Part shown: positions 3,158 to 37,677 of the stretch, one piece after another | How the letters are laid out: every line of letters begins with the position of its first letter | Position numbering within the stretch: the stretch's first letter is position 1 | Source: an uncultured Bacillota bacterium | GTDB taxonomy: Bacteria > Bacillota > Clostridia > Oscillospirales > Oscillospiraceae | Assembly (NCBI GenBank): GCA_947385365.1 | Contig: CANDKT010000008.1 | Coordinates: forward strand, 1 to 38,553 | DNA length: 38,553 nucleotides | Reading direction: 5' to 3' | Position numbers and translations under genes: made by a program | Notes under the pieces: generated by a model | The model's database searches: none | What the model saw: the letters and a program-made list of their open reading frames with translations, nothing else | Told to the model about the DNA's origin: nothing

Positions 3158-4459
3158 ATGAAGACTTGTCAAACTCTGCTCACTGCCCTGGAATCCGGCG
3201 AATACGACCAGCAGTTAGCCGCTCTCTACGCCCTGGACGGAAAGTCTGAGAGTCTCGACCTGGCCCGTAAACGCGCCATCCGCGTCGCCGAGGGTCTGCA
3301 ACTGGCTTTCTCCCCCAGCGAGAAGACCCCCGCCGCGCTCTTCAGCGGCCCGGGCCGCACGGAAATCGGCGGCAACCACACCGACCATCAGCACGGTCAC
3401 GTCCTGTGCGGCAGCGTGGACCTGGATATGCTGGCCTGCGCCGTCCCCAACGGCTTGAACAAGATCCGCATCCTCTCCGAGGGCTACGCCGCCCTGGAAG
3501 TGGAACTGGACTCCCTGCTCCCCCGGAAAGAGGAGATCAATACCTCCGCCGCTCTGGTGCGCGGCGTCGCCGCGAAAGTTCAGGAGTTGGGCTACGACCT
3601 CAAGGGCTTCGACGCCTACGTGACCTCCACCGTGCTGTCCGGCTCCGGGCTGTCCTCCTCCGCCGCCTACGAGGTGCTGATCGGAAACATCCTCAACCGC
3701 TTCTGCTGCGACGGGAACATGGACGCCATCGAGATCGCCAAGACCGGCCAGTACGCCGAGAACATCTACTTCGGCAAACCCTGCGGCCTGATGGACCAGA
3801 TGGGTTCCTCCGTGGGCGGCGCGGTGGCCATCGACTTCGCCGACCCCAAAGCCCCCGTCGTGGAACAGGCCGGGTACGACTTCACCAAGTCCGGCCACGC
3901 CCTGTGCATCGTCGACACCGGCTCCTGTCACGCCGACCTCACCGACGACTACGCCGACATCACCCGCGAGATGAAAGCCGTCGCCGCCCACTTCGGCAAG
4001 GAAGTGCTGCGGGACGTCACAGAAGACGAGTTCCGCGCCGCGATTCCCTCCCTCCGGGTGCGCTGCGGCGACCGCGCCGTTTTACGCGCCATCCACTTCT
4101 TCGACGACGACCGCCGGGCTGTGCAGGAAGCGCAAGCCCTTGAAGAGGGCGACTTCAACCGCTTCCTCGCCCTGGTGAACGCCTCCGGGCTGTCCTCCGC
4201 CCTGAACCTCCAGAACACCTGGTCCATCGCCGATCCCAAACAGCAAGCCATCCCCTTGGCGTTGGCGGAAGGTACGCGGCTGCTGAACGGCGCGGGCGCG
4301 ATCCGCGTCCACGGCGGCGGTTTCGCCGGGACCATCCAGGCGTTCGTCCCCAATGATCGGCTGGAACTCTTCAAGACCGTGATGGAATCCCTGCTGGGCG
4401 CGGGGAAGTGCCACATCCTCCACATCCGGCCTCAGGGCGGCTGCGTGGTCGCGGAGTAA
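3158..4459 (+). CDS. galK: Galactokinase
   Basis: This 433-residue GHMP-family kinase phosphorylates galactose at C1 with ATP, the entry step of the Leloir pathway in the cytosol. The galactokinase signature region is recognisable but divergent (GPGRTEIGGNHTDH, near 64-77, where many members have GRVNLIGEHTDY). The ATP-binding loop GSGLSSSAA (162-170) and the catalytic aspartate in GLMDQMG (D213) are present, as is the C-terminal GHMP segment VHGGGFAGT. AGAGGTG precedes the ATG. It is first of three co-directional gal genes; galE follows after 54 bases. Confidence 0.94.
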   Translation: MKTCQTLLTALESGEYDQQLAALYALDGKSESLDLARKRAIRVAEGLQLAFSPSEKTPAALFSGPGRTEIGGNHTDHQHGHVLCGSVDLDMLACAVPNGLNKIRILSEGYAALEVELDSLLPRKEEINTSAALVRGVAAKVQELGYDLKGFDAYVTSTVLSGSGLSSSAAYEVLIGNILNRFCCDGNMDAIEIAKTGQYAENIYFGKPCGLMDQMGSSVGGAVAIDFADPKAPVVEQAGYDFTKSGHALCIVDTGSCHADLTDDYADITREMKAVAAHFGKEVLRDVTEDEFRAAIPSLRVRCGDRAVLRAIHFFDDDRRAVQEAQALEEGDFNRFLALVNASGLSSALNLQNTWSIADPKQQAIPLALAEGTRLLNGAGAIRVHGGGFAGTIQAFVPNDRLELFKTVMESLLGAGKCHILHIRPQGGCVVAE

Positions 4460-4513
4460 AACGGAAGTCTTACGGGGAACACCCCCTGACTATGAAAGGA
4501 GAAACGATTCGAA

Positions 4514-5506
4514 ATGTCTATTCTTGTTTTGGGCGGAGCCGGTTATATCGGGTCCCACACCGTCTACGAACTCATCGACGCCGGGCGCGACGTGGTCGTC
4601 GCCGATAACCTCCAGACCGGCTTCCAGGCCGCCGTCCACCCCAAAGCCCGCTTCTACCAGCTGGACATCCGCGACCGCGCCGCGTTGGACGTGCTGTTCC
4701 AGGCCGAGAAGATCGACGGCGTCATCCATTTCGCCGCCTCCTCTCAGGTGGGCGAGTCCATGTCCAATCCCCTGAAGTACTACGACAACAACCTCTACGG
4801 TACTATGGTACTCCTTCAAGCTATGGTGGCCCACGGCGTGGACAAGATCGTCTTCTCCTCCACCGCCGCCACTTACGGCGAACCCGAACAGATTCCCATT
4901 CTCGAGACCGACAAGACCGTTCCCACCAACTGTTACGGCGAAACGAAACTGTCGATGGAAAAAATGATGGCCTGGACCAGCAAAGCCCACGGCTTGCGCT
5001 ACGTCGCCCTGCGCTACTTCAACGCCTGCGGCGCGCACCCCTCCGGCAAGATCGGCGAGGCGCACAACCCTGAGACCCACCTGATCCCCGTCATCCTCCA
5101 AGTGCCCAACGGCCAGCGGGAAAAATTGTCCATCTTCGGCGGCGACTACCCCACCAAAGACGGCACCTGCGTCCGGGACTATATCCACGTCACCGATCTG
5201 GCGCAGGCCCACATCCTGGCTCTGGATTACCTGCTCAAGGGCGGCGAAAACAACGTCTTCAACCTGGGCAACGGCGTAGGCTTCACCAACAACGAGGTCG
5301 TGGAAGTCGCCCGGAAAGTCACCGGTCACCCCATCCCCGCCGAGATCGCCCCCCGCCGCGCCGGGGATCCCGCTCAGTTGGTCGCCTCCTCCGAGAAGGC
5401 CAAGACCGTCCTGGGCTGGAAGCCTCAGTACGCCGACCTGGAGACCATCGTCGCCTCCGCCTGGAACTGGCACAAAGCCCATCCCCACGGCTACGAGGAG
5501 GCGTGA
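4514..5506 (+). CDS. galE: UDP-glucose 4-epimerase
   Basis: The 330-residue extended short-chain dehydrogenase interconverts UDP-galactose and UDP-glucose with bound NAD. The N-terminal Rossmann motif GGAGYIGSH (7-15), the SSTAATYG segment (115-122) and the catalytic YxxxK (Y141, K145) are intact, and the C-terminal part carries family motifs such as VRDYIHVTDLA. The ATG follows AAAGGAG. Its TGA stop lies 5 bases before the probable galT start, consistent with translational coupling. Confidence 0.97.
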   Translation: MSILVLGGAGYIGSHTVYELIDAGRDVVVADNLQTGFQAAVHPKARFYQLDIRDRAALDVLFQAEKIDGVIHFAASSQVGESMSNPLKYYDNNLYGTMVLLQAMVAHGVDKIVFSSTAATYGEPEQIPILETDKTVPTNCYGETKLSMEKMMAWTSKAHGLRYVALRYFNACGAHPSGKIGEAHNPETHLIPVILQVPNGQREKLSIFGGDYPTKDGTCVRDYIHVTDLAQAHILALDYLLKGGENNVFNLGNGVGFTNNEVVEVARKVTGHPIPAEIAPRRAGDPAQLVASSEKAKTVLGWKPQYADLETIVASAWNWHKAHPHGYEEA

Positions 5507-5511
5507 GACAC

Positions 5512-7008
5512 ATGATCGACAGCGCTGTTTCCAAACTGGCCGCCTACGCGCTGCGTACCGGCCTGATTCAGGAAAGTGAGTACACCTGGGCCATCAACAC
5601 GATTCTGGACGTCCTCAAGCTGGATAGCTACACCGACCCCGGTCAGGAATGGGGAGACCTGGAACTGGCTCCCATCCTGGAAGAGCTGCTGGACGACGCC
5701 TACGCCCGCGGCGTGCTGACGGAAAACTCCGTGGTCTACCGCGACCTGTTCGACACCGAACTCATGGGCCGTCTGACGCCCCGTCCCTCTCAGGTCATCG
5801 CCCAGTTCAAGGGCCTGGAACGCTTCACTTCCCCCGTGGCGGCCACCGATTGGTACTACAAATTCAGCCAGGACACCAACTATATCCGCCGGGACCGCAT
5901 CGCGCGGGATATGAAGTGGAAGGCTCCCACGGAGTACGGCGACCTGGACATCACCATCAACCTCTCCAAGCCCGAGAAAGACCCGAAAGCAATCGCGGCC
6001 GCGAAAAATCTCCCTGCTTCCGCCTACCCCCGCTGCCAGCTGTGCGCCGAGAACGAGGGCTACGCCGGCCGCGTCAACCACCCCGCGCGTCAGAACCACC
6101 GCATCATTCCCATTTCCATCAATGGTTCCCCCTGGTTCTTGCAGTACTCCCCCTACGTCTACTACAACGAACATTGCATCTGCCTGAACAGCGAACACGT
6201 GCCGATGAAGATCGACCGGGCCTGCTTCGCCAAACTGCTGGACTTCGTGCAGCAGTTCCCCCACTACTTCGTCGGCTCCAACGCCGACCTGCCCATCGTA
6301 GGCGGCTCCATCTTAGCCCACGACCACTTCCAAGGCGGACGCTACACCTTCGCAATGGAACGCGCTGAAGTGGAAACACCGGTCACGTTCCCGGGCTTCG
6401 AGGACGTGCAGGCCGGTATCGTCAAATGGCCCATGTCGGTCGTGCGCATCACCAGCGAAAAACCGCAGCGTTTGATCGACCTGGCCGACAAGATCCTTGC
6501 GGCCTGGCGGGGGTACAGCGATGAGAGCGCGTTCCTCTTCGCCGAGACCGACGGAGAACCGCACAATACCATCACTCCTATTGCCCGCCGCCGGGGGGAG
6601 AAGTTTGAACTGGACCTGGTCCTGCGCAACAACATCACCACCGAAGAACACCCCTTGGGCGTCTACCACCCCCACGCGGAACTGCACCACATCAAAAAGG
6701 AGAACATCGGCTTGATCGAGGTCATGGGCCTGGCCGTCCTCCCCGCCCGGCTCAAAGAGGAACTGGCCGCTGTCGCGGACTGCCTGGCTTCCGGCGGCGA
6801 CCTGCGCGCCAGTGAACTGACCGCCAAACACGCCGATTGGGCGGAACATTTCGCTCCCAACTACACCATTACACAGGAAAACGCGATGGATATCGTGCAA
6901 AAAGAGACCGGTCTGGTCTTCGCCAAGGTCCTGGAACACGCCGGGGTCTACAAACGTACCCCCGAGGGCAAAGCCGCCTTCCTGCGCTTCCTGGAAACGA
7001 TACGGTAA
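5512..7008 (+). CDS. galT: UDP-glucose--hexose-1-phosphate uridylyltransferase, class II
   Basis: This is the long Firmicutes GalT2 family (about 498 residues), not the ~350-residue class I enzyme. It exchanges UMP between UDP-glucose and galactose-1-phosphate. Family segments include PRCQLCAENEGY, the active-site-like GGSILAHDHFQGG and, near the C-terminus, HPHAELHHIKKENIG. I chose the ATG at 5512 because GAGGAGG (5495-5501) lies 10 bases upstream; a GTG at 5503 that overlaps the galE stop is also in frame but has no room for a ribosome binding site. It is the last gal gene; a strong terminator follows at 7019. Confidence 0.95.
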   Translation: MIDSAVSKLAAYALRTGLIQESEYTWAINTILDVLKLDSYTDPGQEWGDLELAPILEELLDDAYARGVLTENSVVYRDLFDTELMGRLTPRPSQVIAQFKGLERFTSPVAATDWYYKFSQDTNYIRRDRIARDMKWKAPTEYGDLDITINLSKPEKDPKAIAAAKNLPASAYPRCQLCAENEGYAGRVNHPARQNHRIIPISINGSPWFLQYSPYVYYNEHCICLNSEHVPMKIDRACFAKLLDFVQQFPHYFVGSNADLPIVGGSILAHDHFQGGRYTFAMERAEVETPVTFPGFEDVQAGIVKWPMSVVRITSEKPQRLIDLADKILAAWRGYSDESAFLFAETDGEPHNTITPIARRRGEKFELDLVLRNNITTEEHPLGVYHPHAELHHIKKENIGLIEVMGLAVLPARLKEELAAVADCLASGGDLRASELTAKHADWAEHFAPNYTITQENAMDIVQKETGLVFAKVLEHAGVYKRTPEGKAAFLRFLETIR

Positions 7009-7018
7009 CGAACCTACA

Positions 7019-7066
7019 GCCGTCCGTCTCCCCGCACGGGGAGAGCGGACGGCGGCGGAAATTTTT
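7019..7066 (+). terminator. gal operon terminator
   Basis: GCCGTCCG-TCTCCCCG and its complement (7019-7053, one bulge, 3-base loop) form a very GC-rich stem, followed a few bases later by ATTTTTC. It ends the gal transcript just before the aromatic operon promoter. Confidence 0.8.
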
Positions 7067-7076
7067 CAAAAAAAGA

Positions 7077-7105
7077 TTGACAGCTCCGCGCCAGGGTGCT
7101 AGAAT
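7077..7105 (+). promoter_or_regulatory. Aromatic operon promoter
   Basis: A consensus TTGACA (7077-7082), 17-base spacer and TAGAAT (7100-7105) with an extended-10 TGC just before it. This is among the strongest-looking promoters in the window, which fits a constitutive promoter whose output is set by the downstream attenuator. Confidence 0.88.
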
Positions 7106-7144
7106 AAATCAACCTACCAGAGCAAAGAGGAGGCTCCCGCCCCA

Positions 7145-7258
7145 ATGAAAAATCAGTTTGCAGCGTTCTACTTTAGCAGCTTTTACTTTTTTGGCTTCGG
7201 TGTCAACAAGGTAAAAGTGCTTTTTGCTGCGAACAAGGATACGAGCTTCCCGGTGTAG
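7145..7258 (+). CDS. Phe/Tyr-rich leader peptide of the aromatic operon attenuator
   Basis: A 37-codon reading frame starts with ATG 11 bases after AGAGGAGG and ends with TAG. Nine of its 37 residues are Phe and two are Tyr; seven Phe and both Tyr fall between positions 5 and 18, including the run FYFFGF spread over SSFYFFGFG. This is the pattern of an attenuator leader peptide, as in E. coli pheL, but with an unrelated sequence. It lies between a strong promoter and the terminator at 7279, upstream of DAHP synthase and pheA, whose pathway makes Phe. The peptide itself probably has no function after translation; the ribosome's position on it is the signal. I infer that stalling at Phe (perhaps Tyr) codons uncovers the antiterminator. 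Confidence 0.85.
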   Translation: MKNQFAAFYFSSFYFFGFGVNKVKVLFAANKDTSFPV

Positions 7259-7299
7259 GTACAGGGGATCGTAATCAGGGCCTGTGGTGAAAAACACTT
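7175..7299 (+). promoter_or_regulatory. Attenuator RNA: alternative hairpins 1:2 and 2:3
   Basis: Segment 1 (7175-7186, AGCAGCTTTTAC), inside the Phe/Tyr codons, can pair with segment 2 (7211-7221, GTAAAAGTGCT), with one bulged base. Segment 2, extended to 7215-7227 (AAGTGCTTTTTGC), can instead pair with 7287-7299 (GTGAAAAACACTT), with 12 of 13 positions matched counting two G-U pairs. The second pairing invades the left arm and loop of the terminator at 7279-7310. So a ribosome stalled over segment 1 frees segment 2 to block termination, while a fast ribosome lets the terminator form. This is the classic three-segment attenuation logic. Confidence 0.75.
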
Positions 7300-7316
7300 C
7301 ACCGCAGGCCATTTTT
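7279..7316 (+). terminator. Attenuator terminator upstream of DAHP synthase
   Basis: GGCCTGTGGTGAA (7279-7291) pairs with TTCACCGCAGGCC (7298-7310) over 13 positions with one G-U pair and a 6-base loop, followed by ATTTTTGTT. It lies 54 bases before the DAHP synthase ATG, with no gene end in front of it other than the leader peptide. Confidence 0.85.
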
Positions 7317-7369
7317 GTTACCCTGAGTAACTGCCGCTTTAAAGCGTGAGAAAGGATCGAGTGCAAGTC

Positions 7370-8383
7370 ATGATTATCATTGTCAAACCGGAGGCCAAAG
7401 AAGAACGTGTGCAGGACCTGATCCACTGGATCGAAGGTCAGAACCTGCGCACCCACGTGTCGACAGGCGACTACACCACCATCATCGGCATCATCGGCGA
7501 CACCAGTAAGCTGGACGATGACCTAATCAGCGGTCTGGATATCGTGCAGGGCGTCAAGCACGTGTCGGAACCCTACAAGAGCGCGAACCGGAAATTCCAC
7601 CCCCTGGACTCCGTCATCGAGGTGGGCGAGCAGAAACTCAAAGTCGGACACGGGAACTTCGCGCTGATCGCCGGGCCGTGTTCCGTGGAGACCGAAGAAC
7701 AGATCATCTCCGTGGCCAAGAGCGTCAAAGCCGCTGGCGCGACGATGCTCCGCGGCGGCGCGTTCAAGCCCCGCACGTCTCCCTACGACTTCCAGGGCCT
7801 GAAAGCCGACGGCATCGAACTGCTCCTGGAAGCAAAACGCGAGACCGGTCTGCCTATCGTCACCGAGATCATGAACGCGAACCATCTGCCGCTCTTCGAG
7901 GACGTGGACGTCATCCAGGTCGGCGCGCGGAATATGCAGAACTTCGAGCTGCTCAAAGAGTTGGGCAAGACCAAAAAGCCCATCTTAATCAAACGCGGCT
8001 TGGCCAATACCATCAAGGAACTGCTGATGAGCGCGGAGTATATCATGGCCAGCGGCAATGAAAACATCATCCTCTGCGAGCGGGGTATCCGTACTTTCGA
8101 GACCGCGACTCGGAATACCTTGGATCTGTCCGCCGTCCCCGTCCTCCACGAACTGACTCACTTGCCTGTCATCGTCGATCCCAGCCATGCGACCGGCGTG
8201 GCCCGGTACGTCAAGCCGATGGCAATGGCTGCCGCCGCTTGCGGGGCGGATGGTCTGATTATCGAAGTCCACAACGACCCGCCGCACGCCTTGTGTGACG
8301 GCGCGCAGTCTCTGCGTCCGGAACAGTTCGAGGACGTCGCAAAGGCCGTTCAGGCGATTCGTGACGTTTCCACGCGGTTGTGA
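7370..8383 (+). CDS. aroF: 3-deoxy-7-phosphoheptulonate (DAHP) synthase, type I beta with N-terminal regulatory domain
   Basis: The 337-residue enzyme condenses PEP and erythrose-4-phosphate, the first committed step of aromatic biosynthesis. Residues 1-66 form the ferredoxin-like regulatory domain found in Thermotoga-type enzymes, where Phe/Tyr inhibit; residues 70-337 are the TIM barrel. Catalytic segments are AGPCSVE (starting at A101), KPRTSPYDFQG and the C-terminal DPSHATG. I chose the ATG at 7370 because MIIIVKP is the family N-terminus; in-frame GTGs upstream (7346, 7361) are possible but less typical. A Clostridial symbol such as aroF is used here by function. Control is probably double: attenuation of transcription and allosteric inhibition. 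Confidence 0.95.
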   Translation: MIIIVKPEAKEERVQDLIHWIEGQNLRTHVSTGDYTTIIGIIGDTSKLDDDLISGLDIVQGVKHVSEPYKSANRKFHPLDSVIEVGEQKLKVGHGNFALIAGPCSVETEEQIISVAKSVKAAGATMLRGGAFKPRTSPYDFQGLKADGIELLLEAKRETGLPIVTEIMNANHLPLFEDVDVIQVGARNMQNFELLKELGKTKKPILIKRGLANTIKELLMSAEYIMASGNENIILCERGIRTFETATRNTLDLSAVPVLHELTHLPVIVDPSHATGVARYVKPMAMAAAACGADGLIIEVHNDPPHALCDGAQSLRPEQFEDVAKAVQAIRDVSTRL

Positions 8384-8426: not shown

Positions 8427-9518
8427 ATGAAAACCTTGCCAGTGGAAACCTCCCGTCCCTACGAGATCAAAATTGCACGGGGCTTACTGCCGCGGGCCGG
8501 GATATTGTGCCGTCAGGCGTTGCCGCAGGCCAAAAAGTTGGCCGTCGTCACCGACAGCAACGTCCTGCCGCTGTACCTGGGACGTTTGGCGGACAGTCTG
8601 AAAGCCGCAGGGTTTCAGGTGCAGTGCCTGACCGTCCCCGCCGGGGAAAACGCAAAGTGTGCGGAACAACTGGTCGTTCTTTGGGAGAAAATGATGGGTT
8701 CCGGCATGACCCGTACCGACGGCGTAGTCGCGTTGGGCGGCGGGGTCGTGGGCGATTTGGCGGGTTTCGCCGCCGCGACCGTGCTGCGCGGGGTGAATTA
8801 CGTTCAGATCCCGACAACGCTTTTGGCTCAGGTAGACTCTTCCGTGGGCGGCAAGGTCGCCATCGACCTTCAGGCAGGGAAGAACTTGGCCGGGGCGTTC
8901 TGGCAGCCCAGTTTAGTCATCATCGACCCCGATTGCCTGAACACGCTCCCGGACCGTGTGTTCTCCGACGGTATGGCGGAGGTCATCAAGTACGGCTGTA
9001 TCCGGGACCGGGCGTTTTTTGATTTGCTGGACGCCTGCGGCGGTCGGGCTGGGGTAATGGAACACATCGAAGACGTCATCCTCACCTGCTGCGACATCAA
9101 GCGGAAGGTCGTGCTGGCTGACGAGCGGGACACCGGAGAACGAATGGTCCTCAACTTCGGCCACACCATCGGCCACGCCTTCGAGAAGGCGGGACACTAC
9201 GAGACCTGGACCCACGGGCAAGGCGTAGCCGCCGGGATGAACTGGGCCGCTCAGATCGGCGTAGGGCTTGGCGTCACGCCGCCGGAGGCCGTGGAACCGG
9301 TTCAGAACATCCTGGAGAAGTACGACTTGCCGGTTGACATCCCCTGTCCGTGGGACGTGATGACCAATGCGGTCTTGCGGGACAAGAAGAACTTGGCGGG
9401 TAAGATCAACCTGATCGTGATGGAACGTTTAGGCCACGCGGTCCCGTACCCGCTCACCTTTGACCAACTGCTGGAACAGCTGGAGGCCATGCGGGAGGTA
9501 AGACCGTGGATGTGCTGA
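8427..9518 (+). CDS. aroB: 3-dehydroquinate synthase
   Basis: The 363-residue NAD- and metal-dependent enzyme cyclises DAHP to 3-dehydroquinate, step two. The NAD-binding segment GGGVVGDLAGF, the PTTLLAQVDSSVGGK motif and the metal-ligand region MVLNFGHTIGHAFE are all present. AGAAGG precedes the ATG. Its last 13 bases overlap the start of aroA, so the two are translationally coupled. Confidence 0.97.
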   Translation: MKTLPVETSRPYEIKIARGLLPRAGILCRQALPQAKKLAVVTDSNVLPLYLGRLADSLKAAGFQVQCLTVPAGENAKCAEQLVVLWEKMMGSGMTRTDGVVALGGGVVGDLAGFAAATVLRGVNYVQIPTTLLAQVDSSVGGKVAIDLQAGKNLAGAFWQPSLVIIDPDCLNTLPDRVFSDGMAEVIKYGCIRDRAFFDLLDACGGRAGVMEHIEDVILTCCDIKRKVVLADERDTGERMVLNFGHTIGHAFEKAGHYETWTHGQGVAAGMNWAAQIGVGLGVTPPEAVEPVQNILEKYDLPVDIPCPWDVMTNAVLRDKKNLAGKINLIVMERLGHAVPYPLTFDQLLEQLEAMREVRPWMC

Positions 9519-10687
9519 TTGCTCCGGCGTCTCTGGTTGGAACGGTGACGCCGCCCCCAAGCAAAAGTCAGGCACACCGGGTCCTGCTGGCTATGCTGCT
9601 GTCGGGAGGGGAGGGGACCGTCTCCAATCTGACCACCTCTCAGGACATTGAAGCCACTCAACGCTGTGCTGCCGCGCTCAAGGCGTCGGGGAACGGTCTG
9701 CCTCTGCTGGACTGCGGGGAATCCGGGTCCACGCTGCGGTTCCTCATCCCGATTGCATTAACGCTCCGGGGCGGGGGCCGGTTCACCGGGCGGGGACGGC
9801 TGATGGAGCGGCCTCAGAAGCCCTACTTCGATCTGTTCGACCAGAAAGGCGTCTCCTACGAGCAGAAAAACGGCGTCCTCACCGTACAAGGCGCCCTGAC
9901 GCCAGGGGAGTACCCCTTGCCCGGCAACGTGTCCAGTCAATTTGTCACCGGGCTTCTGTACGCTCTGCCCCTGCTGGAGGGGGAGAGCCAAATCGTACTC
10001 ACCTCGCCGCTGGAGTCCCGGAGCTACGTGGACATGACCCTGAAAACTTTGCGCGACTTCGGCGTGACGGCGGAGAACCGGGGCTATGAGACCTTCACCG
10101 TTCCCGGAAACCAGCGGTTCCAGGCGAGAGATGTGACCATTGAAGCGGACTGGTCTCAGGCGGCGTTCTGGTATGCGGCGATGTTCCTGAAACATCTGGT
10201 GGACGTGGTGGGGCTGGACCCGGATTCCGCCCAAGGGGACAAGGTGATCGGAGACTTTTTCGTCCAGCTGTGCCAGGAAGAAGATTTGGACTTGGACCTG
10301 TCCGATTGCCCCGACTTAGCCCCGCCTCTGGCGGTGATGTCCGCGTTTCGGGCAGGCCGAACAACGCGTTTAGTCAACGCCGCGCGGCTGCGTATGAAGG
10401 AAAGCGACCGGTTGAACTCCGTGGCCCGAACGCTGAACGCGTTGGGCGCGCAAGTGGAGGAGGGATCGGACCGTTTGGTCATCCGGGGGCGGGACCGCTT
10501 GGAAGGCGGCGCGGAGATTGATTGCTGCAACGACCACCGGATCGCTATGATGGCCGCCATTGCTGCGACCCGATGCCGTCAAGCGGTCACTTTGCGGGGG
10601 GCGGAGTGCGTCAGGAAGTCCTACCCGGAATTTTGGGAACACTACCGTATGTTAGGAGGAAACGCGCATGTCTTTGTATCTGGGTAA
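9506..10687 (+). CDS. aroA: 3-phosphoshikimate 1-carboxyvinyltransferase (EPSP synthase)
   Basis: At 393 residues it is slightly shorter than the usual ~430. It transfers the enolpyruvyl group of PEP to shikimate-3-phosphate. Starts at GTG 9506, preceded by GGGAGG inside aroB. Typical motifs: PPSKSQAHR near the N-terminus, CGESGSTLRFL (the PEP/glyphosate loop) and LRMKESDRL near the C-terminus, then NDHRIAMM. The loop differs from E. coli GNAGTAMRP at positions equivalent to T97 and P101 (S and F here). The 3' end overlaps aroC by 20 bases. Confidence 0.96.
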   Translation: MDVLIAPASLVGTVTPPPSKSQAHRVLLAMLLSGGEGTVSNLTTSQDIEATQRCAAALKASGNGLPLLDCGESGSTLRFLIPIALTLRGGGRFTGRGRLMERPQKPYFDLFDQKGVSYEQKNGVLTVQGALTPGEYPLPGNVSSQFVTGLLYALPLLEGESQIVLTSPLESRSYVDMTLKTLRDFGVTAENRGYETFTVPGNQRFQARDVTIEADWSQAAFWYAAMFLKHLVDVVGLDPDSAQGDKVIGDFFVQLCQEEDLDLDLSDCPDLAPPLAVMSAFRAGRTTRLVNAARLRMKESDRLNSVARTLNALGAQVEEGSDRLVIRGRDRLEGGAEIDCCNDHRIAMMAAIAATRCRQAVTLRGAECVRKSYPEFWEHYRMLGGNAHVFVSG

Positions 10688-11744
10688 AAATTTGCAAGTG
10701 TCCATTTTCGGCCAGTCGCACGCGCCAGCGATTGGAGTCACAGTAGACGGTCTGCCAGCGGGGGAAGCGGTGGATTTGGAAGCGTTGGAACGGTTCCTTC
10801 AACGCCGCGCGCCGGGCCAGGACCCTACCGCTACCGCTCGCAAGGAGGGGGATAAGCCGAAGATTCTCTGCGGACTGCTGGAGGGCCGCACTTGCGGCGC
10901 GCCTCTGGCCGCGGTCATCGAGAACACCAACACACGCGCCCAAGACTACGACCAGTTTCAGGACATACCCCGCCCCGGCCACGCCGACTACACTGCGCAC
11001 GTGCGGTATGGAGGGTTTCAGGACGCGGCGGGCGGCGGGCATTTTTCCGGGCGGCTCACAGCGCCTCTGTGCATTGCCGGAGCGATTTGCATCCAGATCC
11101 TGGAACGGCGGGGAATCGAGATTGCCGCGCACGTCCGCACCATTGCTGGAGTAGAGGACCGGCCTTTCGACCCGATGGGGGAGGACCTGGAAACGCTTCG
11201 GGCGTTGAAAAGCGCCTCGTTTCCGGTGCTGGACCCGGCGGCGGAGGCGAAAATGCGTGCTGTGATTTTGGAAGCGAAGGAACAGCTGGACTCCGTGGGC
11301 GGCGTAGTGGAATGTATCGCCTGCGGTGTGCCCGCAGGGCTTGGAGGTCCGATGTTCGGCGGCATGGAGAGCCGCTTAGCCGCCGCGCTCTTCGGCGTAC
11401 CCGCCGTCAAAGGCGTGGAGTTCGGCGCGGGCTTTGAAGCCGCGCGTCTGCGCGGCTCGGAGAACAACGACCCGTTTGTTATCAAAAATGGGGCCGTTTC
11501 CCTGAAATCGAACCGCGCCGGTGGTATTTTAGGCGGCATTACGGACGGGATGCCTCTGCTTATGCGCGTGGCGTTTAAACCTACGCCGTCCATCGGACGG
11601 GAGCAGGACAGCGTGTCGCTCACCCGGAAGACACCGGAGAAGCTCAAAGTTCACGGCCGGCACGACCCGTGTATCGCGCCGCGTGCGGTCCCGGTTGTGG
11701 AAGCCGCCGTCGCTGTGGTGTTGCTGGACGCCTTGCTGTCCTGA
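10668..11744 (+). CDS. aroC: Chorismate synthase
   Basis: The 358-residue FMN-dependent lyase converts EPSP to chorismate, the seventh and last step of the shikimate pathway. It shows the N-terminal FGQSHAPAIGVTVDGLPAG, RPGHADYT, the FMN-binding AGGGHFSGR region and the C-terminal RHDPCIAPRAVPVVEA. The ATG lies inside the end of aroA with TTAGGAGG 8-10 bases before it. It lacks any obvious truncation. Confidence 0.97.
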   Translation: MSLYLGKNLQVSIFGQSHAPAIGVTVDGLPAGEAVDLEALERFLQRRAPGQDPTATARKEGDKPKILCGLLEGRTCGAPLAAVIENTNTRAQDYDQFQDIPRPGHADYTAHVRYGGFQDAAGGGHFSGRLTAPLCIAGAICIQILERRGIEIAAHVRTIAGVEDRPFDPMGEDLETLRALKSASFPVLDPAAEAKMRAVILEAKEQLDSVGGVVECIACGVPAGLGGPMFGGMESRLAAALFGVPAVKGVEFGAGFEAARLRGSENNDPFVIKNGAVSLKSNRAGGILGGITDGMPLLMRVAFKPTPSIGREQDSVSLTRKTPEKLKVHGRHDPCIAPRAVPVVEAAVAVVLLDALLS

Positions 11745-11815: not shown

Positions 11816-12967
11816 ATGGACCAGAATTTAGAAGCCCTGCGGGGCAAGATCGACGAGATCGACGAGAAGATTGTGGAGCTGTTCAAGACGCGGATGGAGT
11901 TGTCCGGCGAGATCGCGAACTGCAAGAAAGCGGGCAACTTGCCGGTCTTAGCGGCGGGACGGGAACGCGCTCTGCTCAACCGGGTCGGGCAACAGGCGGG
12001 AGAAGAACTGGCCGATTACACCCAGTCGGTGTACCGGACGATCCTGTCCGCCAGCCGCTCTTACCAGAACGGAAAGATTGGGAAGGCGTCGGTTCTGTAC
12101 GCCGGTATCCGGCAGGCGTTGGAAGCGACGCCGGAGCTTTTCCCGCAGCGGCCCACCGTGGCCTGCAAGGGCGTGGAGGGTTCCTACACCCAGGCGGCCT
12201 GCGACCGGTTGTTCAAGGCTCCGGCGATGATGTATTTTCAGACTTACGACCATGTGTTCCGCGCCGTCGAGAGCGGGATGTGTCAGTATGGCATTCTGCC
12301 TATCGAGAACAGCAGCGGCGGTTCGGTGAAAGCGGTGTATGATCTGATGCTCCGCCATAATTTTTCGATTGTCCGTTCTGTACGGATGGGGGTCAGCCAA
12401 AACCTGATGGCTCGCAGCGGGGTCCGGGAAGCGGATATCCGGGAGCTGTTCGCCAATGAGCAGGCCATCGACGAGTGCGCGGGGTATCTGGCCGGGTTGA
12501 AAGAGGTCAAGGTGACGGTGACGGAGAACGCCGCCACGGCGGCGCGTATGGCGGCGGAGGACCAGAACGGGACAGCTGGAGCGTTGTCCGCTCGGTTCTG
12601 CGCGGAACACTTCGGGCTGGAGATCTTGCGGGAGAACCTTCAGGACCAGGACAATAACTACACCCGTTTCATCTGCATTTCCAAAAAGCCGGAGATTTAC
12701 CCCGGCGCGGACCGTACCACGCTGATGATGACGCTGCCGCACAAGCCCGGTTCTCTGTACAACGTGCTGGCGAAGTTCTACGCGCTGAACATCAACCTCC
12801 AGAAGTTGGAGAGCCGTCCTCTGCCTGGCCGGGAGTTTGAGTTCATGTTCTACTTCGACATCGAGGCGTCCGTCTACGCCCCCGAGGTGGAGCGGCTGTT
12901 CCGGGACTTGGAAGCGGACAGTGAACAGATGCGTTACCTGGGCAGCTACAACGAGGTCACGGGCTGA
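11816..12967 (+). CDS. pheA: Bifunctional chorismate mutase / prephenate dehydratase (P-protein)
   Basis: The 383-residue protein joins an AroQ-type chorismate mutase (1-90), a prephenate dehydratase domain (about 108-285, with the catalytic TRF motif at 283-285) and a C-terminal ACT domain (about 298-375) that contains ESRP (332-335), the Phe-binding segment. It takes chorismate to phenylpyruvate and is expected to be inhibited by phenylalanine. AAGGAAGAGG precedes the ATG after a 71-base gap from aroC. Its TGA overlaps the next gene's ATG by one base. No prephenate dehydrogenase (tyrA) is in this operon, so the operon is biased toward Phe, matching the Phe-rich leader. Confidence 0.96.
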   Translation: MDQNLEALRGKIDEIDEKIVELFKTRMELSGEIANCKKAGNLPVLAAGRERALLNRVGQQAGEELADYTQSVYRTILSASRSYQNGKIGKASVLYAGIRQALEATPELFPQRPTVACKGVEGSYTQAACDRLFKAPAMMYFQTYDHVFRAVESGMCQYGILPIENSSGGSVKAVYDLMLRHNFSIVRSVRMGVSQNLMARSGVREADIRELFANEQAIDECAGYLAGLKEVKVTVTENAATAARMAAEDQNGTAGALSARFCAEHFGLEILRENLQDQDNNYTRFICISKKPEIYPGADRTTLMMTLPHKPGSLYNVLAKFYALNINLQKLESRPLPGREFEFMFYFDIEASVYAPEVERLFRDLEADSEQMRYLGSYNEVTG

Positions 12968-14196
12968 TGGGACCGGAGGAGTTCGGCCTGATCGGGGAGA
13001 AACTGGGACACAGTTTTTCCCCTGCCATCCACCGGCAGCTGGGTGATTACAGCTACCGGCTGATCGAGCTGGCCCCGGAAGAGCTGGGACCGTTCCTGGA
13101 ACGCGGCGCGTTTCGGGGCCTGAACGTGACCATCCCCTACAAAAAGGCGGTCATCCCGTACTGCGGGACGCTGACCGCTCAGGCGGAACGGATCGGCAGC
13201 GTCAACACCATCGTGAAGCGTCCGAACGGTTCCCTGCTGGGGCACAACACAGACTACGACGGTTTTGTTTGGCTGCTCCGCGCCGCCGGGGCGCGGGTGG
13301 AGGGACGGAAAGCCTTAGTATTGGGCACCGGAGGCGCTTCCCTCACCGTCCGCGCCGTGCTTCAGGACTTGGGAGCGGGGGAGATCGTATCCATTTCCCG
13401 CTCCGGACCGGACAACTACCAGAACCTGGAACGTCACGCCGACGCGAAGATTTTGGTCAACGCGACCCCGGTGGGGATGTACCCCAAAACCGGCGTGTCG
13501 CCGGTGGAATTGTCGTGTTTCCCTCAGCTGGAGGGCGTGTTCGACCTGATCTACAACCCCGCGAAAACGAAACTGCTGCTGGACGCGGAACGGCGGGGGT
13601 TGATTTTCGCCAACGGCTTAGGGATGCTGGCGGCGCAGGCGAAAGCGGCGGCGGAGCTTTTCCTGCAACAAGATATCCCGGACGAACGGGTGGAGGAAAT
13701 CGTTCAGGATATGGAGAAACGGACCAAAAATCTGCTGTTAGTGGGGATGCCCGGCTGCGGAAAGAGTACGGTAGGTCGATTGCTGGCCCAGCGTCTGGGC
13801 CGGGAACTGGCCGATTTGGACGCGCTGATCGAAACCCGAGCGGGCTGCACCATCCCGGAGTTGTTCGCGCAAGAGGGAGAAGAGGCGTTCCGCCGTTTGG
13901 AGCATACGGTTCTGGAGGAGACCGCCCGGCGTTCCGGTCTGGTCATCGCCACAGGCGGCGGGGTCCTGACCCGAGCGGAGAACTGGGACCCTCTGCGGCA
14001 AAATTCCACGGTTATTTTCTTGCGCCGTCCGGTGGACCAACTGCCTGTCCAAGGCAGGCCCGTCTCCCAGGCCAACGATTTGGAACAGCTCTTCCGTCAG
14101 CGTCTGCCTCTGTACCAGAGAGCCGCTGATTTAGAAGTAGACAACCGGACGCCGGAGGACGCGGCGGAGGAGATTATAAGGAGGCTTTCACTGTGA
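12967..14196 (+). CDS. aroE-aroK: Fused shikimate dehydrogenase / shikimate kinase
   Basis: One 409-residue frame holds two enzymes. Residues 1-252 are AroE: the substrate motif GHSFSPAIH (S16, S18), the catalytic-site lysine K59 in VTIPYK, D96 in NTDYDG and the NADP loop LGTGGAS. Residues 255-409 are shikimate kinase: Walker A GMPGCGKST (260-268), DLDALIE, the FRRLE arginine, TGGGV and the C-terminal RLPLYQRAAD. It would perform steps four and five, 3-dehydroshikimate to shikimate to shikimate-3-phosphate. The junction (EEIVQDMEKRTKNLLLVG) contains no stop or start signal, so this is a true fusion rather than two overlapping genes. It starts on the pheA stop and overlaps aroQ by 4 bases. Confidence 0.94.
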   Translation: MGPEEFGLIGEKLGHSFSPAIHRQLGDYSYRLIELAPEELGPFLERGAFRGLNVTIPYKKAVIPYCGTLTAQAERIGSVNTIVKRPNGSLLGHNTDYDGFVWLLRAAGARVEGRKALVLGTGGASLTVRAVLQDLGAGEIVSISRSGPDNYQNLERHADAKILVNATPVGMYPKTGVSPVELSCFPQLEGVFDLIYNPAKTKLLLDAERRGLIFANGLGMLAAQAKAAAELFLQQDIPDERVEEIVQDMEKRTKNLLLVGMPGCGKSTVGRLLAQRLGRELADLDALIETRAGCTIPELFAQEGEEAFRRLEHTVLEETARRSGLVIATGGGVLTRAENWDPLRQNSTVIFLRRPVDQLPVQGRPVSQANDLEQLFRQRLPLYQRAADLEVDNRTPEDAAEEIIRRLSL

Positions 14197-14642
14197 AGCT
14201 GCTCGTCATCAACGGCCCGAACCTGAATCTGCTTGGGGTTCGGGAGCCGGATATCTACGGCAAGCAGGATTATAAAGCCCTGACCGCGCAGATCGAGACC
14301 GTTTGCAGGGAGTTGGGCATTCAGGTGAAGATCTTCCAGTCGAACCATGAGGGGACCATCGTGGACCAGATTCAAGCGGCTTACGGCGCGATGGACGCCA
14401 TCGTCATCAACCCCGCCGCTTACACCCACACCAGCGTGGCGATTCTGGACGCGTTGAAGGCGGTGGGACTGCCAGCGGTGGAGGTCCACCTGTCCGACGT
14501 CAGCGCCAGAGAAGACTTCCGTCAGGTGTCCTACGCCGGTATGGCCTGCGAGAAGACCATCATGGGTCGGGGGTTCCAAGGTTACGAGGACGCGATACGC
14601 TGGCTCTGGGAGCGGTACGGTGGAGAGGAGAGGCGTACATGA
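14193..14642 (+). CDS. aroQ: 3-dehydroquinate dehydratase, type II
   Basis: The 149-residue length and the motifs LVINGPNLNLLG, NPAAYTHTSVAI, EVHLSD and AREDFR identify the type II (dodecameric) enzyme that dehydrates 3-dehydroquinate to 3-dehydroshikimate. Starts at GTG 14193, which overlaps the previous stop as GTGA, with AAGGAGG 7 bases upstream. It completes the seven-step pathway in this operon. The stop overlaps the next gene by 4 bases. Confidence 0.96.
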   Translation: MKLLVINGPNLNLLGVREPDIYGKQDYKALTAQIETVCRELGIQVKIFQSNHEGTIVDQIQAAYGAMDAIVINPAAYTHTSVAILDALKAVGLPAVEVHLSDVSAREDFRQVSYAGMACEKTIMGRGFQGYEDAIRWLWERYGGEERRT

Positions 14643-15967
14643 AGGTCAACGTGGAGAGCTACGTCACGGTAACGCCGCGGATTTTGCACGCCAACCGTGT
14701 CCAACGGGTCGAGATCGCGCCCAAATTTGATTTCATCCGGTTCAACGGCGCGTATACGGTCTCGGTTTTTCCCCGTTACCGTTTCCGCTACGACGCTGGA
14801 CGGGGCGGCGCATACTACGAACCGTTCCGGTGTACCGCGGAGCATGGGCGGCTTTCGTTTGAGTACTCCTTCGGTTCGGAGCAGGAGTACATCATACAGG
14901 TGAAGCCGGATCAGGGGGGCGGCATCAATACGCGGGTCGTCGAGACTTCCGTCTACGCGCTGGAAGACGACCTGTACGGCTTGCGGGTACTGAAAGGCGA
15001 TCTGCACTTGCACACCACCTTCTCGGACGGCGTCGAGTCGCCGGAACACCGCGCGATGCAGGCGCGGAAAGCTGGGTTTGATTTCCTTGCAATCACGGAC
15101 CACAACACCTATTCCGGCAGTGTCCACCTGATCGAAAAAATGCGGGCGTGCCCCAACAACATGGTGTTTCTCCGCGGCGAGGAGGTCCACGCGACAGGTT
15201 GTCCGGTGCATATCCTGTCCTTAGGCGCGTCGGAGGCCATCGCGCCCAAAGTGACCAAGCCTGATGCGGAACGCTCCGCCCGTCTGCAAGCCATCGCGGA
15301 ACAGTATCAGGATACGCTGGACGCGGACGTGGACCGGCACGCGTTTGCGGCGGCGCAGGACGTGTTTCAGAAGATCCGGGAAGCGGGTGGTATGAGCGTT
15401 CTGTGTCACATCTACTGGGACGCTGTGGACGGTGGTCAGCATAGGCGTATGGGCGCGCCGGAGCAGCTGATCGACGCGCTGGTTCGGAACCGGCTCTTTG
15501 ACGCGTTTGAGATCACGTCCGGGGCTCCGGCCTTCGATTTGAAGGCAAACTATTTGCAGGAGATCTACTATCGGGAGAACCTTCCCCCCAATTTCCCGAT
15601 CATTGGGATCACCGATTCGCATTCGACCTTGCCCGCGGTGAGCATATTCGGACAGAATTACACGATTGCTTTCGTGGAAGCGCAGACAGAGGAGGGAATT
15701 TTGGAAGCGATTCGGAACGGTCGTTCCGTGTCGGTGGACGGTGTTGGAAGCAACGTCATCTGTCACGGGTCGCTCCGTTTGAGCAAATACGCCGCGTTCC
15801 TGCGGGAGAAGTACTTCCCCGCGCACGACGAGGCGGTGGAATTGGAAGCGGAACTGATGCTGAAGATCTTACTGGGGAAGCTGGAATATGTTTCCATACT
15901 GGAAGACGTGTGCAGAGACGATTTGCAGCTGTTGGCCTTGGAATGGGGCGTCATCTCTCCGAAATAG
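14639..15967 (+). CDS. PHP-domain metal-dependent hydrolase at the end of the aromatic operon
   Basis: The 442-residue protein has an N-terminal ~115-residue beta-rich domain of unknown role, then a PHP domain with all expected metal-ligand motifs: GDLHLHTTFSDG (near 120-131), TDHNTYSG, EEVHATG, VLCHIYW and the late ITDSHST. The layout resembles CehA/McbA-type phosphoesterases. It overlaps aroQ as ATGA and has a GGAGAGGAGAGG Shine-Dalgarno region, so it is co-translated with pathway enzymes. PHP proteins include histidinol phosphatases and other phosphoesterases; a phosphatase step linked to aromatic metabolism is possible, but the substrate cannot be read from sequence. A strong terminator follows. 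Confidence 0.85.
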   Translation: MKVNVESYVTVTPRILHANRVQRVEIAPKFDFIRFNGAYTVSVFPRYRFRYDAGRGGAYYEPFRCTAEHGRLSFEYSFGSEQEYIIQVKPDQGGGINTRVVETSVYALEDDLYGLRVLKGDLHLHTTFSDGVESPEHRAMQARKAGFDFLAITDHNTYSGSVHLIEKMRACPNNMVFLRGEEVHATGCPVHILSLGASEAIAPKVTKPDAERSARLQAIAEQYQDTLDADVDRHAFAAAQDVFQKIREAGGMSVLCHIYWDAVDGGQHRRMGAPEQLIDALVRNRLFDAFEITSGAPAFDLKANYLQEIYYRENLPPNFPIIGITDSHSTLPAVSIFGQNYTIAFVEAQTEEGILEAIRNGRSVSVDGVGSNVICHGSLRLSKYAAFLREKYFPAHDEAVELEAELMLKILLGKLEYVSILEDVCRDDLQLLALEWGVISPK

Positions 15968-36489: not shown

Positions 36490-36534
36490 AAAACTCCCGT
36501 AACCGTTGAAATTTCAAGGGTTACGGGAGTTTTT
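36490..36534 (+). terminator. tRNA-Gly terminator
   Basis: AAAACTCCCGTAACC (36490-36504) pairs with GGTTACGGGAGTTTT (36519-36534), giving a 15-bp stem with a T-rich end. The loop is itself partly self-complementary (TTGAAATTTCAA). Confidence 0.9.
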
Positions 36535-36690: not shown

Positions 36691-37062
36691 ATGGCGATTA
36701 TGATTGAGCTGTCCCCGGAGCGGCTGGAGTGTCAAGAGATCGAGACGGTATTACGGCGTCTCCGCATCCCTGGGACGCGGGTAGGGCAGAGGTACCTGGC
36801 CTATGCGGTGCAGTGTGCCATGCTGGACCCGGATCTCACCCTGACCAAGACCGGCGCGCTGTATCCCATGATAGCGGATAATTTTGGCGTCACGCGCACG
36901 GGCGTGGAGCGTGCCATGCGGACGGCGGTGCAGGCCAGCTGGGAGCGCGGCGGACGTGCAACGCTTGATGAGATAGCCGGATACCATCTCGACGTGCGCC
37001 CCACAACTTTTGAGTTTGTGGATTTGGTCGCAGCGCACCTATTGCGGTCCGTGTTGCCCTAA
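36691..37062 (+). CDS. Orphan Spo0A C-terminal-domain protein, first copy
   Basis: A 123-residue protein without a receiver domain. It matches the Spo0A effector domain: LECQEIETVLRRLRIP, YLAYAVQCAML, LYPMIADNFGVTRTGVERAMRTAVQASWERGG and, at the end, RPTTFEFVDLVAAHLL, parallel to B. subtilis Spo0A ([32 protein letters not shown] and KPTNSEFIAMVADKL). It should bind DNA without phosphorylation control. AGAAAGG lies 9 bases before the ATG at 36691; ATGs at 36682 and 36700 are also in frame. A strong terminator follows. Its presence behind a tRNA suggests acquisition by a mobile element. Confidence 0.85.
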   Translation: MAIMIELSPERLECQEIETVLRRLRIPGTRVGQRYLAYAVQCAMLDPDLTLTKTGALYPMIADNFGVTRTGVERAMRTAVQASWERGGRATLDEIAGYHLDVRPTTFEFVDLVAAHLLRSVLP

Positions 37063-37329: not shown

Positions 37330-37677
37330 ATGACAATCGAGGAGCAAATCTACGCAGAGCTGCTGGTCATGGGGATCACGCGGCGCTATCGCGGCTGTAC
37401 ACAGGTCTGTATAGCGACGGTACTGGCGATACAGGATGCAGAGCGTCTGCACGACATCACCGAGCAGATCTATGAGGTTGTAGCGTCGCGTTGTGGTACG
37501 CGGGTGAGCAATGTGGAGCGCAATATCCGCACCGTCTGCCAACGGGCGTGGAGAATAAACCGCAAGCGTATGAGCGAGCTGGCGGGGTATCCGCTCTACG
37601 CGCCGCCTGCGGTTTCAGATTTCATCTCAATTTTGGCGGCGCATATGCAACGCACCCAGCACACGGCAGATGTTTAG
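37330..37677 (+). CDS. Orphan Spo0A C-terminal-domain protein, second copy
   Basis: The 115-residue protein has the same fold signature but is strongly diverged from the first copy: MGITRRYRGCTQVCIATVL, LHDITEQIYEVVASRCGTRVSNVERNIRTVCQRAW and a C-terminal APPAVSDFISILAAHM. The VERxIRT recognition helix is retained. The ribosome binding site is weak (GGGGTG 5-8 bases before ATG). It ends 4 bases from the convergent RHH gene. It has no receiver domain or membrane segment. A role as DNA-binding regulator is likely; its targets are unknown. Confidence 0.75.
   Translation: MTIEEQIYAELLVMGITRRYRGCTQVCIATVLAIQDAERLHDITEQIYEVVASRCGTRVSNVERNIRTVCQRAWRINRKRMSELAGYPLYAPPAVSDFISILAAHMQRTQHTADV

Follow-up and report, generated by a model that had tools for sequence, protein, structure and literature searches.

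Escherichia coli pheL-pheA and pheST are controlled by a Phe-rich leader, alternative hairpins and a terminator that respond to charged tRNA-Phe. These attenuators are summarised in PMC11802643, where the aroR leader of the Corynebacterium glutamicum aroF operon is also treated (Neshat 2014 as cited there; also PMC4046766); the passages on aroR in these two papers name a Phe-Tyr-Phe run and report that it responds to Phe limitation, not to Tyr. Candidate upstream open reading frames (uORFs) with Phe or Tyr codons at shikimate genes are already in print (PMC6429828, PMC8632094). One, uORFC-13-1, reported from Acholeplasma and environmental sequences (24 representatives), is described in the relevant part of PMC8632094 as a candidate uORF that precedes aroF together with a terminator and contains one or more Phe codons, and a sentence in the Fig. 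6b legend of PMC6429828, a study whose five genomes include C. novyi, gives two candidate uORFs with Phe and Tyr 5' of shikimate genes. Leader attenuators for His and Leu are reported, in the sections concerned, from Firmicutes, where T-boxes are common (PMC9413887, PMC2965389).

The window analyzed here, a stretch of 38,553 nucleotides from an uncultured member of the Oscillospiraceae (GCA_947385365.1, contig CANDKT010000008.1), carries an aroF operon preceded by what we predict, with a probability of about 0.93, to be a ribosome-mediated transcription attenuator of the trpL/pheL kind that senses charged tRNA-Phe and, less so, tRNA-Tyr. Computation provides conserved Phe/Tyr frames, terminators, co-varying antiterminators and a fold that depends on where the ribosome stalls. 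As each defining feature that can be computed is present, the locus is placed among the classical leader-peptide attenuators. Like pheL-pheA and pheST it has a Phe-rich frame, alternative hairpins and a terminator, and a response to charged tRNA-Phe would be expected; unlike them, it has DAHP synthase and the whole shikimate pathway downstream, and its control codons mix Phe and Tyr. With C. glutamicum aroR it shares aromatic leader codons before a DAHP synthase operon, but only Phe-Tyr-Phe is named in the accounts of that actinobacterial leader, whereas 6-10 Phe/Tyr fall within 12 codons here. For uORFC-13-1, the part of PMC8632094 devoted to it mentions a further base-paired element and describes no antiterminator, whereas antiterminators are predicted here. 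The uORFs of PMC6429828, known from that one legend sentence, are likewise short Phe/Tyr frames 5' of shikimate genes, and the Firmicutes His and Leu leaders, as presented in the sections cited, are classical leader peptides too but use histidine or leucine codons and serve other operons. In the literature covered by our search, which for PMC6429828 and PMC8632094 was text passages, so that their motifs may overlap with this one, we found neither this clostridial attenuator nor its antiterminators described, and no mention of the connection between Tyr share and tyrA treated below.

Table 1. Features of the aroF leader region and operon in the window, with the base-paired segments of the predicted switch.
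Feature	Coordinates	Strand	Remarks
Promoter	7077..7105	+	-35 TTGACA, 17-nt spacer, TG, -10 TAGAAT; 11/12 consensus matches
Likely Shine-Dalgarno of leader frame	7127..7133	+	GAGGAGG, 11 nt 5' of ATG; read from sequence
Leader peptide frame	7145..7258	+	37 codons, 9 Phe and 2 Tyr; translation MKNQFAAFYFSSFYFFGFGVNKVKVLFAANKDTSFPV
Control codons of leader frame	within 7145..7258	+	codons 8-10, 13-16 and 18
Segment 1 and hairpin top	7156..7206	+	inside control codons; from fold
Segment 2	7208..7234	+	partner of segment 1, or of segment 3 (antiterminator)
Segment 3	7279..7299	+	terminator 5' arm, loop, first base pairs of 3' arm; bases 7284-7299 are the partner of segment 2 in the antiterminator
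Segment 4	7298..7318	+	terminator 3' arm 7298-7310 and T-run
1:2 hairpin	7156-7165/7225-7234, 7175-7189/7208-7221, 7191-7195/7202-7206	+	one base left out in 7175-7189/7208-7221
Antiterminator	7215-7219/7295-7299, 7221-7230/7284-7293	+	4 of the ten pairs of 7221-7230/7284-7293 are G-U
Intrinsic terminator	7279..7310	+	13 bp, 8 GC pairs, 6-nt loop, then ATTTTTGTTA
aroF, type I DAHP synthase, ferredoxin-like N-terminal domain	7370..8383	+	PF00793, PF18152
aroB, 3-dehydroquinate synthase	8427..9518	+	Pfam search
aroA, EPSP synthase	9506..10687	+	Pfam search
aroC, chorismate synthase	10668..11744	+	Pfam search
pheA, chorismate mutase - prephenate dehydratase	11816..12967	+	Pfam search
aroE-aroK fusion (shikimate dehydrogenase substrate-binding domain and shikimate kinase)	12967..14196	+	Pfam search
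aroQ, type II dehydroquinase	14193..14642	+	Pfam search
PHP-domain protein, final frame of run	14639..15967	+	Pfam search

The leader occurs as a single copy in the window's own genome, and aroF starts about 60 nt 3' of its terminator. The strong promoter, the 37-codon frame with its Phe and Tyr codons and the 13-bp terminator with T-run were all correctly recognised in a first-pass annotation made from the sequence (Table 1). The promoter is near-consensus and of the extended -10 type, and transcription would be expected to start near 7111-7113. By eye, TTGACA / TATGAT-like elements lie in the same place in many relatives, and AGGAG-like stretches precede the leader ATG there too. Folding of 7106-7320, a check that the same annotation had proposed, gave z -6.9 against shuffles (0 of 200 as good), and the exclusive pairings fold and co-vary. 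Both the 1:2 hairpin (folded for the window only) and an antiterminator exclusive with the terminator are present; one segment thus has two mutually exclusive partners, as first proposed, at positions somewhat different from the 7211-7227, 7175-7186 and 7287-7299 originally given. Taken alone, the window's antiterminator is not better than its shuffles (z -0.89, p 0.17), and its significance comes from the relatives.

We modelled stalling in the window by placing a ribosome at eleven sites (A-site codons 5, 8, 9, 10, 13-16, 18, 27 and the stop codon) and folding the RNA 3' of it at successive transcript ends, an equilibrium, not a kinetic, calculation with a footprint assumed to reach 11 nt past the first base of the A site. 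For A-site codons 10, 13-16 and 18, the fold contains 16-19 antiterminator pairs at ends 7299 and 7304. The corresponding values at these two ends are 15.2 and 12.4 for codon 9, 13.5 and 4.9 for codon 8, and 10.7 and 3.1 for codon 5, and antiterminator pairs fall to 0.4 at codon 27 and to 0 at the stop codon. Ribosome-free RNA has 25.7 expected pairs between 7145-7204 and 7205-7240 and no antiterminator. The control codons are placed such that stalls at 9, 10, 13-16 and 18 free the antiterminator segment. In the full-length RNA, every folded state favours the terminator form, by 14-17 kcal/mol at codons 10, 14, 16 and 18 (relative to the best fold with 7300-7310 unpaired), so antitermination would have to be kinetic. 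As in the E. coli trp operon, the decision would have to fall while RNA polymerase is passing from segment 3 to segment 4.

We infer that the leader is translated, that ribosomes stall on it and that switching is kinetic. With charged tRNAs at hand, the ribosome would reach the stop codon and cover segment 2, the 3:4 terminator would form and transcription would end before aroF. When charged tRNA is short, the ribosome would stall at codons 9-18 and cover segment 1, so that segment 2, left unpaired, would join with segment 3 as the latter emerges and before segment 4 exists; this antiterminator would let RNA polymerase read into aroF-aroB-aroA-aroC-pheA-aroEK-aroQ. If the leader is not translated, the 1:2 hairpin would form and termination would be the default.

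The survey of relatives comprised 45 loci found with AroF as bait in genomes of the genus and order (own included) and the best 80 of a longer list of matches to named records; one locus (L113) was dropped throughout for too short an upstream stretch, leaving 124. Leader frames were defined by at least six Phe/Tyr in 12 codons no more than 400 nt from aroF. Such frames precede aroF at 91 of the 124 loci (related to each other, not 91 independent events), where dinucleotide shuffles predict 3.4, and we therefore reject a chance frame; the reverse strand, as a control, has five. Carriers include 27 of 31 loci of the genus (own included), 10 of 14 from other families of the order and 54 of the 79 named loci. 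Among the best 80 matches listed, the named records that come nearest belong to Oscillospiraceae and other Clostridia (several named MAGs carry labels of other phyla, kept as recorded), and the named isolates in which a leader is found include Oscillibacter valericigenes (L107), Angelakisella massiliensis (L100) and Bittarella massiliensis (L139). The relatives thus keep the Phe-rich frame along with the terminator, rather than the terminator with its Phe codons lost. The first-pass annotation had also considered a leader over DAHP synthase and the whole pathway unusual; a Phe/Tyr leader over DAHP synthase has precedents in Corynebacterium and, as a candidate, in Acholeplasma, and the arrangement is the commonest among the sampled aroF loci. 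In a broad clostridial sample, the control predicted most often for the shikimate operon would be classical leader-peptide attenuation.

Frame length, as chosen, varies from 12 to 60 codons, and the tails have little in common from one group to another. When the window's 37-aa leader was searched directly against 394 genomes of the order, only four genomes, own included, gave a match below E 0.001, as leaders diverge fast. What appears in these sequences to be the same device, in different letters, stands before the same operon in many related bacteria. At the other 33 of the 124 loci, the 400 nt next to aroF contain no such leader. For L007 and L092 a frame lies further out; the L007 leader is almost that of L006 and sits about 180 nt further 5' of aroF, a shift for which additional sequence between the terminator and aroF apparently accounts. 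A T-box scan of 20 of the 25 named leaderless loci found none at the gathering score.

Two kinds of aroF operon occur within the genus, one in L003-L015 and one in L025-L031, L061-L065 and L070, with AroF 86-93% and 60-65% identical to the window's, respectively, and with unlike leader and terminator sequences; operon replacement may account for this. Three further loci of the genus (L069, L071 and L072; AroF 59-61% identical) have a different leader-like frame, below the leader threshold, with FGWARFMG and similar runs in which Trp stands beside Phe/Tyr, possibly a three-amino-acid variant of the leader.

A T-box or metabolite riboswitch could control the terminator, the Phe-rich frame then being incidental. 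T-boxes are common in such genomes: the window's own has 13 matches at E <= 0.001, including one about 150 nt upstream of trpE (E 3e-14 and a score of 66.6 bits, short of the gathering score of 93, with T-box sequence visible), and Rfam finds one before aroF in L074. However, no family in the Rfam library, in which an E. coli-type Phe leader is presumably included, matches 7000-7400 even at E 5. Moreover, Phe/Tyr frames persist at loci whose RNA sequence has diverged, and the antiterminator segment sits in or just after the leader frame. On this evidence control by a T-box or riboswitch is very improbable. A T-box (RF00230) before the window's aroF was sought specifically and gave no match, though the same library detects that of L074, and at gathering scores Rfam matches none of the aroF leaders from 19 further loci that carry one. 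In genome G038, a T-box match (contig 65, 54303-54567) ends 57 nt 5' of that genome's second aroF and occupies the place where others have the leader.

The window's genome pairs a predicted leader attenuator at aroF with a T-box at trpE, so that Trp synthesis and the shikimate/Phe operon appear to be under distinct kinds of RNA control. A trpE gene was found in this genome and in five of 29 other relatives; Phe and Tyr may therefore be the main products for which many of them use the pathway, in keeping with leaders nearly free of Trp.

Ribosome-mediated attenuation is further supported by terminators and antiterminators across the loci. A terminator (dG below -8) lies between leader and aroF in 86 of the 91 leader loci; in 81 it is below -15 kcal/mol, a value reached by none of 455 shuffles of the same stretches. 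In 57 of the 86 loci, segment 2 pairs with segment 3 better than its own shuffles do (p <= 0.05; about four loci expected). When partners were swapped among 53 representatives of these 86, the centred energies favoured pairing of segment 2 with its own terminator by 5.4 kcal/mol (5000 permutations, z -12.8), the own terminator ranking first in 15 and among the best five in 34. Shuffled segment 2 keeps only -0.7 to -1.5 kcal/mol of this effect, its composition share, and the stretch 5' of the leader, used as a control, has no preference (z -0.1). Restricted to the 14 class-1 loci, the comparison shows no consistent advantage of the own partner, as class-1 sequences hardly vary. Changes on both sides of the antiterminator were read by hand in L065, L070 and L099. 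The conserved-looking peptide tails KVKVLFAAN (window's group) and GKACFGLAE (a second group) coincide with RNA segment 2. Variable sites of the class-1 leader fall on codon positions in the numbers 22, 21 and 22; the missing third-position excess is expected if RNA pairing also constrains the sequence and is not positive evidence of coding.

The amino acids sensed can be gauged from codon content. Over all leaders, residue shares are 18% Phe, 12% Tyr, 0.5% Trp and 0.3% His; Tyr is present in all 91 and at least as frequent as Phe in 23. In an alignment of the window with 13 class-1 relatives (L007 left out), F and Y exchange at three control columns and others are fixed as Phe or Tyr. The initial proposal of control by charged tRNA-Phe, perhaps with a smaller effect of tRNA-Tyr, is supported; for the group as a whole, Phe and Tyr together would be sensed.

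Tyr content is associated with operon content. The gene tyrA lies directly 3' of aroF in 63 of the 83 leader loci with a recognised next gene, and the Tyr share Y/(F+Y) has a median of 0.43 with tyrA next and 0.26 without, a class in which tyrA may lie further downstream, most loci being short. Generalised least-squares on the AroF tree, which stands in for the operon tree, gave a tyrA effect of 0.108 (p 0.006; 83 of 91 loci) in a test conceived after seeing the data; counting the eight loci with an unidentified next gene as lacking tyrA gave 0.091 (p 0.011; 91 loci). For runs on 81 loci, which left out 10 of the 91, two of them with pheA as next gene, the p value was 0.0046; it was 0.001 once G+C and A-skew were added as covariates, again 0.001 when the set was restricted to named loci, 0.0014 when the window's group was left out and 0.0097 when six dubious loci were removed. 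On the AroF tree, the tyrA label switches at least 11 times. Within the window's group the difference is small (0.18-0.25 without tyrA, 0.18-0.33 with it).

On balance, we lean slightly toward regarding the leader as a tunable two-amino-acid sensor, in which the mix of Phe and Tyr codons would be set by the products of the operon and the switch kept while nearly all its letters are replaced. Under this reading, tyrA directly behind aroF would go with more Tyr codons, its absence from that position, as in the window, with a shift to Phe, and the letters of leader tail and terminator would be replaced together across the group. The link of Tyr share to tyrA is possibly a new evolutionary pattern. 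The 91 leaders, among which the gene behind aroF has changed 11 or more times, make it testable whether codon content evolves to suit that of the operon.

A constitutive partial terminator without amino-acid response, its Phe/Tyr richness stemming from T-rich RNA, would account for the terminator winning at full length in every folded state; it is nonetheless scarcely credible, since same-dinucleotide shuffles rarely yield such frames, the leaders are enriched in Tyr and almost without Trp and His (shares above), and Tyr share tracks operon content. Equally implausible is a functional small hydrophobic peptide (membrane or toxin-like) lying before aroF by chance, for while an aromatic, partly hydrophobic sequence is kept in most sampled members of the genus, beyond its aromatic density it differs between groups in length and tail, the conserved tails are antiterminator letters, and the genome holds the one copy.

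The genes behind the predicted attenuator form the complete shikimate operon named in the first-pass annotation: aroF, aroB, aroA, aroC, aroE-aroK and aroQ cover all seven steps, with pheA in addition. The PHP-domain gene overlaps the end of aroQ and may be part of the operon. In this genome (88.5% complete), aroF is the sole DAHP synthase of either Pfam class found. The tyrA gene is on a separate contig and has, by eye, a promoter-like sequence just 5' of its start, with no room for a leader.

Directly 5' of the leader, on the same strand, lies a gal cluster (3158-7008) with galactokinase-like (3158), UDP-glucose 4-epimerase-like (4514) and galT (5503-7008) genes, galT being assigned by Pfam GalP_UDP_transf and the other two named from reading their translations. 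Further along the window, the Spo0A C-terminal DNA-binding domain (PF08769) is found in the frames 36700-37062 (E 3e-24) and 37330-37677 (E 1e-22), which have no receiver domain match and adjoin a tRNA-Gly gene. Just 3' of that tRNA gene, an inverted repeat at 36490-36533, with two adjoining 22-nt arms, 95% complementary and with zero spacer, is possibly a bidirectional terminator.
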